Origin: a virus
Strand: one strand, 5' to 3'
DNA: 24,438 bases
Virus record (IMG/VR): IMGVR_UViG_3300033552_000054
Location: 1 to 24,438 of that record
This document shows, in pieces, positions 13,299-14,277 of this stretch; position 1 is the first letter of the stretch; every line of letters starts with the position of its first letter. The translations under genes and the position numbers were made by a program. The notes below the pieces were generated by a model. That model had not been told where the DNA came from and did no database searches. It was given only the letters and a program-made list of their open reading frames with translations.

Positions 13299-13318
13299 CA
13301 TTGATCGCACAACGATCT

Positions 13319-13392
13319 GTGTCGAAGTAGCTTAAAGACAAAAGCGTATCCTAACGGGAGACTTATGCGGGTTGAAGTCTCGTCTTCGATAC
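13319..13392 (+). ncRNA. tRNA-like element upstream of tmRNA
   Basis: A cloverleaf-like fold fits: a 7-bp acceptor 13321-13327/13384-13390 (extendable to 9 bp), T8, a D-like arm GCTT/AAGC, a 4-of-5-bp anticodon-like stem GTATC/GAGAC with loop CTAACGG (T33 present; formal anticodon AAC at 13353-13355), a 4-nt variable loop, and a T-like arm GCGGG/CTCGT with loop TTGAAGT. Against a working tRNA: the D-loop lacks GG, position 56 is G not C, and a rival 7-bp hairpin GAGACTT/AAGTCTC competes. A perfect GATCG/CGATC hairpin lies just upstream (13303-13317). It may be a decayed tRNA, a tRNA mimic or part of a larger precursor. Confidence 0.45.
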
Positions 13393-13419
13393 TAAATAAT
13401 AAAATGTTCTTTTACATAT

Positions 13420-13770
13420 GGGGGTGAACGGATTTGACAGGATGGTTCTGGGTTAAAATATTATGCCGTAGGCTTGCAGGCTACTACGTTAAAATTGAGT
13501 GCAATCAATAAATGGCAAAAACACAATAACAGATGCAGACATGGTAGCCATGGATGCTCTATTGAATGAAGCTAAATCAATTGTCTTTACTCCTGCAAAG
13601 GAAGAAGAATTAGAATTAGCAGCCTAATACTAATACAAGTTTGCTAGAGTCACAAACTAGATGGTGGAGTTAGGTTGATTAGATTATTCTTTTCGATCCC
13701 AATTTAAAGCATATATAAATATTTTAATTACAACATCTCTGGACGGGGTTATCGTAGACCCCCACCTCCA
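13420..13770 (+). ncRNA. ssrA: Transfer-messenger RNA (tmRNA)
   Basis: A 351-nt tmRNA. The 5' end GGGGGTGAACGGATTTGACA carries the conserved acceptor and D-arm-like sequence. The 3' end has GGACGGGG... and CACCTCCA, completing the tRNA-like domain. The acceptor helix GGGGGUG/CACCUCC contains a G3-U70 wobble, the identity element for alanyl-tRNA synthetase. The next bases are CAA, so CCA is not fully encoded. The mRNA-like part ends in codons for ELELAA and TAA. It would rescue stalled ribosomes and tag the nascent chain for proteolysis. The frame feeding that ending is unusually long (see the tag entry). It is flanked by a tRNA-like element and an HNH endonuclease gene. Confidence 0.95.
13514..13627 (+). 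other. tmRNA tag reading frame, about 37 codons
   Basis: From GGC at 13514 the frame reads GKNTITDADM..., continues without a stop, and ends ...KEEELELAA followed by TAA (13625-13627), with a second in-frame TAA two codons later. The GKN start resembles the GEN start of Bacteroidota tags, and the LAA end is the standard degradation signal, so the frame is anchored at both ends. An upstream in-frame TGA limits any earlier resume codon to at most five codons. The AKTQ-stop frame starting one base later gives no LAA ending. Typical tags have 8-15 residues. The resume codon itself is inferred. Confidence 0.75.
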
Positions 13771-13788
13771 CAAATTATTTAATTCTAA

Positions 13789-14277
13789 ATGGCTAAGGTT
13801 GAAATTACTTGTGCAAATCCTCAATGTTCTAAATCATTTCATAGAAATGAAAGTCAAACTAAATATAATCTAAGGACAGGACGAGCTAAAGGATCTTTCT
13901 GCTGTATTCAATGTTCAAAAGATGCACGAGATAAAGATCAATTCACTGGTTTTAGAGAATTGTTGAGAAGTTGTCAAAGAAGGGTCAAAATTCAACCCAA
14001 TACTTTAACACTTCAAGAGATGAAATCTCAATGGGATAAACAACAAGGCATTTGCGTTTATACAAAAGTTCAATTGATCTTGTATCATTCTCGAAACAAT
14101 TACAAGAATAGTACTCTATATAGAGTTTCTCTTGATCGAATTGATAATAAGAAGGGATATACCGCTGACAATGTTCAATTCATTAGTATAATGGCCAACT
14201 ATGCTAAGAATAGAGGCACTCACGAACAAATGATTGAGTTTTGTCGAGTTGTGGCTGAAAATTGCAAAATAGTTTAA
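13789..14277 (+). CDS. HNH homing-type endonuclease
   Basis: 162 aa. The N-terminal zinc-binding part has C8-x4-C13 and C39-x2-C42. The C-terminal HNH-like core has GICVYTK (87-93), then VSLDRIDNKKGYTADNVQFI (113-132), the classic S-x-D-R-I-D...GYT..N-V-Q pattern of phage free-standing homing nucleases. Such enzymes cut DNA lacking the element and spread by repair. It lies 18 nt after the tmRNA and ends 3 nt before tRNA-Trp, so it looks like an insertion into an RNA gene cluster. The first catalytic His is not obvious, so activity is likely but uncertain. Confidence 0.8.
   Translation: MAKVEITCANPQCSKSFHRNESQTKYNLRTGRAKGSFCCIQCSKDARDKDQFTGFRELLRSCQRRVKIQPNTLTLQEMKSQWDKQQGICVYTKVQLILYHSRNNYKNSTLYRVSLDRIDNKKGYTADNVQFISIMANYAKNRGTHEQMIEFCRVVAENCKIV

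Follow-up and report, generated by a model that had tools for sequence, protein, structure and literature searches.

A divergent phage tmRNA with a 37-residue tag frame, probably a member of a long-tag group in Bacteroidota phages

The DNA analyzed here (the window) is the 24,438-base IMG/VR record IMGVR_UViG_3300033552_000054, positions 1 to 24,438. Gene products encoded in the window include a DNA polymerase III alpha subunit, a DnaB-like helicase, a Toprim protein, ThyX, and an SMC-like protein. The polymerase is most similar, at 36%, to enzymes of Chryseobacterium phage MA9V-3 and Cellulophaga phages, which makes a Bacteroidota host likely. A tmRNA gene and a neighboring gene were delineated as follows:

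13420–13773, plus strand: phage tmRNA gene of the standard (one-piece) form, from a full-length RF00023 match
13420–13426, plus strand: 5′ acceptor strand GGGGGUG, paired with 13763–13769 (CACCUCC), from the sequence and the Rfam alignment
13467–13504, plus strand: PK1 pseudoknot, S1 13467–13471/13484–13488 and S2 13474–13478/13500–13504, from the sequence, with the Rfam alignment agreeing in position
13505–13513, plus strand: resume-codon context UCAAUAAAU, its last six bases the same as in many long-tag relatives
13514–13627, plus strand: tag frame GKNTITDADMVAMDALLNEAKSIVFTPAKEEELELAA, 37 codons and UAA, frame 0 from GGC, supported by relatives
13532–13567, plus strand: core of the phage long-tag family in diverged form, DADMVAMDALLN (compare EANMNKVFSLLN), from a MAFFT alignment and a profile test
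13637–13703, plus strand: post-tag domain, with stem AGUUUG/CAAACU, then AUGGUGG, a hairpin, and CCCA, from the fold and family model R1
13745–13762, plus strand: T-arm, with the 8-nt loop UAUCGUAG in place of the 7-nt UUCRANU, from the sequence
13789–14277, plus strand: HNH/endonuclease-VII-like gene (phrog_3322 and phrog_1035 matches), 15 nt 3′ of the tmRNA

The HNH/endonuclease-VII-like gene is probably outside the tmRNA system. Directly 5′ of the tmRNA, positions 13315–13397 resemble a degenerate tRNA by eye (GUGUCGAA/UUCGAUAC ends); neither ARAGORN nor Rfam made a call in this stretch.

The initial annotation had placed a phage-encoded tmRNA at 13420–13770, and an end-to-end match to RF00023 confirmed it (13420–13773, plus strand; model positions 1–374; 74.5 bits against a gathering score of 47; E 1.6e-27), with acceptor stem, P2, and PK1 intact. 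The acceptor stem has 7 bp and includes G13422·U13767, which corresponds to G3·U70, the alanine identity pair. P2 pairs were read from the sequence at 13441–13444/13734–13737 and 13453–13462/13718–13727, and an intact T-stem is directly readable as well. A permuted tmRNA (RF04321) was rejected, as the gene order is standard and the score only 12.1 bits. The description of the tRNA-like domain as intact holds for G3·U70 and the acceptor stem, but the T-loop is the 8-nt UAUCGUAG and the 3′ end is ACAA, with CCA not encoded. Although the canonical 7-nt T-loop is absent, the RF00023 cut-off is still passed. Because this curated model score is reached with the T-loop included, we read the loop as variation and not as a ground for exclusion from tmRNA; it recurs in phages. 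Loops of this type, UAUCGUA(G/U), were found in 14 contigs (L144, L564, L574, and others), in phage tmRNAs and in tmRNA 3′ fragments. A host origin of the variant was rejected, with 0 of 395 Bacteroidota genomes carrying this loop type. ARAGORN did not call the window tmRNA; the atypical T-loop is the probable cause.

The resume codon, GGC at 13514, lies nine bases past PK1, and the tag stop is UAA at 13625–13627. Re-reading of all frames showed that, as first described, the only one with LAA-stop runs from GGC at 13514 to TAA at 13627 and encodes 37 residues with a GKN start and an ELELAA end; frames +1 and +2 stop at codons 5 and 18 without a degron-like end. A covariance-model search had been proposed for fixing the resume codon and pseudoknots. 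It settled the alignment of the 5′ part, through the resume position, at high posterior probability and did not move the resume codon further 3′, but was uninformative for the tag and post-tag region. The interior of the tag stayed open in 1160 of 20,000 shuffles (5.8%), and a run this long could, on its own, be open by chance. Openness alone is unremarkable, and the case for the tag rests on the resume position, the ELELAA-stop end, and the relatives described below.

That the tmRNA is decaying and non-functional, with a long frame that is accidental, is very unlikely. The odd T-loop, the CCA that is not encoded, the diverged pseudoknots, the missing ARAGORN call, and the 5.8% of shuffles with an open interior would all fit decay, but the acceptor stem, G3·U70, P2, PK1, T-stem, and resume context are intact, further phage tmRNAs whose tags are intact have the same T-loop type, and the window tag has the matching ELELAA-stop end.

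The tag region is also more stable as RNA than dinucleotide shuffles (z −3.2), and part of its sequence may be maintained by demands of RNA structure, such as local hairpins. This stability and two internal ATGs are what would be expected if the long frame were an independent small ORF or undecoded RNA structure, a reading that we find hardly credible: the frame begins precisely where tag translation would resume and has a degron at its end, the internal ATG positions are not common to most relatives, and the tags of relatives are under codon-phase selection. The earlier suggestion of an independent peptide from the internal ATGs is not supported, given the same mismatch, with tag residues 10 and 13 out of line with the conserved Met (core ANM) of most relatives. 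An amphipathic helix, likewise suggested, found no support, as 32% of shuffles reached its maximum hydrophobic moment of 0.40, which is thus not above chance.

Chromosomal tags of Bacteroidota, from genomes drawn from the phylum, have 9–10 residues in all 51 ARAGORN calls, and the same 5′ pattern scan that was used for phages returned tags such as GENNYALAA, GEENFALAA, and GEYNYAMAA from bacterial genomes. Two 31-residue calls from Chitinophaga MAGs in that scan are without an AA end and look like miscalls. The comparison with host ssrA tags therefore distinguishes the window tag (37 versus 9–10 residues). Bacteroidota host ssrA shares with the window a one-piece tmRNA, a tag beginning with G and ending in LAA, and the same tRNA-like domain, whereas the window has a shorter post-tag domain and an 8-nt T-loop in place of the standard one. 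Known tmRNA tags span 8–35 residues, and their terminal degrons are recognized by ClpXP, ClpAP, and Lon (PMC8012679). By quoted length alone, the window tag is comparable to the upper end of these bacterial tags, which, as quoted, are not phage-encoded, unlike the window tag. A database paper reports 97,179 tmRNAs, 79 of them from phages, with 10 as the commonest tag length, and the parts of it consulted do not discuss long phage tags (PMC11915505). "Exceptionally long" thus holds relative to hosts, but 37 residues is not the extreme, as related phage tags reach 42.

Relatives were collected by 5′ pattern scans of IMG/VR viral contigs, with counts that depend on the patterns and are not prevalence estimates, and by blastn with one group member as query, which reached cultured phages. 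The comparison with other phage tmRNAs that the initial annotation had called for yielded 33 distinct related tags of 24–42 residues (median 35) from both sources, with a core selected as peptide. An AA end is present in 30 of the 33, and 26 have at least two acidic residues among the last 12. Examples from the main group are GKNNSRVVALGANAQIEANMNKVFSLLREEVAVAA (35 residues), DNNTISLDADQVSANMSKVFSLINADVEELEIAA (34), and GNTMSTQETAQEVANMSVVHNILNGSDDLVAPVATVKLAMAA (42). Among cultured phages, Flavobacterium phage FpV4 and its kin carry GNTNNSVVSLEDNAQVEANMNMAFSLIREDVAVAA, with no feature annotated at the locus; Cellulophaga phages Calle_1, phi40:1, and phi38:1 carry GNNTNAVNAQIEANMEAVNAILNLEVAVGV; and the crAss-like Cellulophaga phage phi14:2 carries GNDTDNTQLKANMTVVHNILNGSDALIGSSVQKLAMVA, with the tmRNA unannotated in the record used. 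Rfam confirms a tmRNA in FpV4, Calle_1, phi40:1, and several IMG/VR members; in phi14:2, the gathering score was not reached in the stretch tested. CDSs predicted over the tmRNAs in phi14:2 and phi40:1 are annotation errors (L311, L315, L147, and other loci). ARAGORN starts long phage tags too late, giving for example 18 instead of 35 residues. Such wrong starts affect most of the tags collected here, and long tags are therefore probably under-reported. No description of long-tag tmRNAs from Bacteroidota phages was found in the open-access literature searched, and the group is apparently undescribed. In L170 (930–2399), a tmRNA whose tag has 34 residues precedes a GOLLD RNA by ~0.7 kb.

The related tags have a common core, Q(V/I)xANMxxVxxxL(L/I)N, and show codon-phase selection. 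Among 23 coding variants of the GKN type and FpV4, frame 0 is open in all 23, and both other frames contain stops in all 23. The pN/pS ratio is 0.60 for the 35-codon set and 0.57 for the 37-codon set, compared to 0.9–3.0 in shifted frames; these figures are for the relatives' tags, and the sequences are related, so that counts are not independent. For the 14-codon core (31 distinct sequences), pS is 0.65, pN 0.24, and pN/pS 0.37, a ratio not reached in any of 300 column permutations; between FpV4 and L137, pS is 0.94 and pN 0.16. The codon-phase signal is clear despite kinship, and the related tags are therefore kept as peptides.

The window tmRNA is probably a divergent member of this group, as judged from several sequence comparisons. 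Its tag length of 37 falls within the 24–42 range, and several group members have its exact resume context, AUAAAU/GGCAAAAAC. FpV4, Calle_1/phi38:1/phi40:1, and phi14:2 share with it a phage tmRNA and a 30–38-residue tag beginning with G(N/K); core ANM is well kept in FpV4 and the Cellulophaga phages, whereas the window core is degenerate and its PK1 differs in sequence from that of the family. Against a family profile from which the window was left out, the window tag gave a modest signal, with 36 of 5000 shuffles that kept the ends fixed scoring as high (p about 0.007), and 91 of 2000 shuffles equaled or beat its best pairwise local score. The layout UGGUGG...CCC past the tag appears to be common to the window and long-tag relatives, and stems of the family post-tag domain show double-sided changes among relatives. 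Family model R1 matched window positions 13629–13719 in register and over its whole length, but with a score of only 8.8 bits (E 0.1 within the tmRNA); on the family post-tag model, FpV4, whose tag makes it a member, also reached only 14–15 bits. The 8-nt T-loop type also occurs in L144, a clear group member. Searches by blastn in phages, with the 5′ end, and with the tag end EELE.AA recovered no close relatives of the window tmRNA. The window DnaE was found in none of the first 45 tmRNA contigs; therefore, either the distribution of the tmRNA group cuts across phage lineages or these contigs use other polymerases.

Unrelated types of long tag also occur in phages and carry conserved motifs of their own (FEDAM, EDIMSIPTS, and KLxxLGLxRTEEV). 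These types, together with the permuted forms below, suggest that phage tags were lengthened on more than one occasion. Permuted (two-piece) tmRNAs in L115, L156, and L175 resemble the window in having 36–37-residue tags with an acidic segment before a hydrophobic end, but are of the RF04321 gene form, whereas the window is of the standard form. A relative of these permuted tmRNAs, L158, has a 10-residue tag (GEQVELAMAA), and lengthening in the permuted form was probably independent.

With moderate confidence, we propose that the phage tmRNA, with host SmpB, appends an extended tag of the Bacteroidota-phage group, in which the core would be a second recognition element. During infection, the phage tmRNA, SmpB of the host, and alanyl-tRNA synthetase would rescue stalled ribosomes, and Ala plus the 37-residue tag would be added to rescued chains. 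Tags of the group are made up of a conserved core on the N-terminal side, a linker in which acidic residues are usual, and an AA end of the ClpXP type, through which ClpXP-like proteases would presumably degrade the tagged chains. The extension would most likely let a protease adaptor or a phage protein dock and also provide a long unstructured tail, such that rescued chains would be handled differently from host-tagged ones. In FpV4 or Cellulophaga phi38:1/phi14:2, tagged chains would have the C-termini ...NAQVEANMNMAFSLIREDVAVAA or ...GNDTDNTQLKANM...LAMVA. Use of host SmpB is consistent with the absence of SmpB from 34 of 35 long-tag phage records. A phage-borne SmpB as general partner was rejected, as it was found in 1 of the 35. 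A 271-kb phage contig (L629, the record of L117) has both a 24-residue-tag tmRNA and a full SmpB (151.8 bits).

Alternatively, the tag could be a plain degron on a neutral spacer, with phages having relaxed its length and only the LAA end mattering. Indeed, no feature of the tags is more constant than the C-terminal AA (30 of 33), the window core is weakly conserved, and tag lengths range from 24 to 42. We regard this as unlikely, as the core is kept as a peptide in Flavobacterium, Cellulophaga podo-like, and crAss-like phages and many IMG/VR contigs (pN/pS 0.37), whereas the flanks vary. A low probability is likewise given to a tag that redirects rescued proteins or acts non-degradatively, by phage-protein docking or host-factor inhibition, with the ClpXP end serving only for turnover. 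Such a role would agree with a conserved core that is not matched in any host tag seen and with the separate motifs of the unrelated long-tag types, but AA-type C-termini in nearly all tags point to proteolysis, and the partner is putative only. A recognition role for the core within a degradable tag remains our preferred reading, and the window phage may in this way reprogram ribosome rescue, as first suggested.

More broadly, that many Bacteroidota phages carry long tags with a conserved peptide core suggests that phages alter the fate of rescued proteins. Tentatively, Bacteroidota phages may have repeatedly swapped the 9–10-residue host tag for a bipartite tag of 24–42 residues, with the core recruiting a specific partner (adaptor, protease, or phage protein) and trans-translation diverted to a phage purpose. 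Selected long tags in cultured phages, namely the F. psychrophilum phage FpV4 and the Cellulophaga phages, make the open question of why phages carry tmRNA directly testable.

Several minor observations were made alongside. With 8 nt, the T-loop may be poorly suited as a target for group I introns or integrases; a group I intron in the window T-loop itself was rejected, with no Rfam match in the window. In L313 (cr128_1, 899–1168), the T-arm of a phage tmRNA is interrupted by a group I intron (Rfam), and in L149, L192, and L211, the T-arm is interrupted by sequence that looks similar by eye. The post-tag motif GAUUUCUYUAUUAGAUUAAAUARAGUGGUGG was also found outside tmRNA, between a tRNA and a tmRNA, in Lactococcus phages AM1 and WRP3 (L312, 802–861; L314, 792–851). 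A tRNA gene in L562 (5166–5309; Rfam 56.5 bits) has a ~72-nt anticodon-loop insert with a short frame ending in NEELEVAA-stop, which may be chance.
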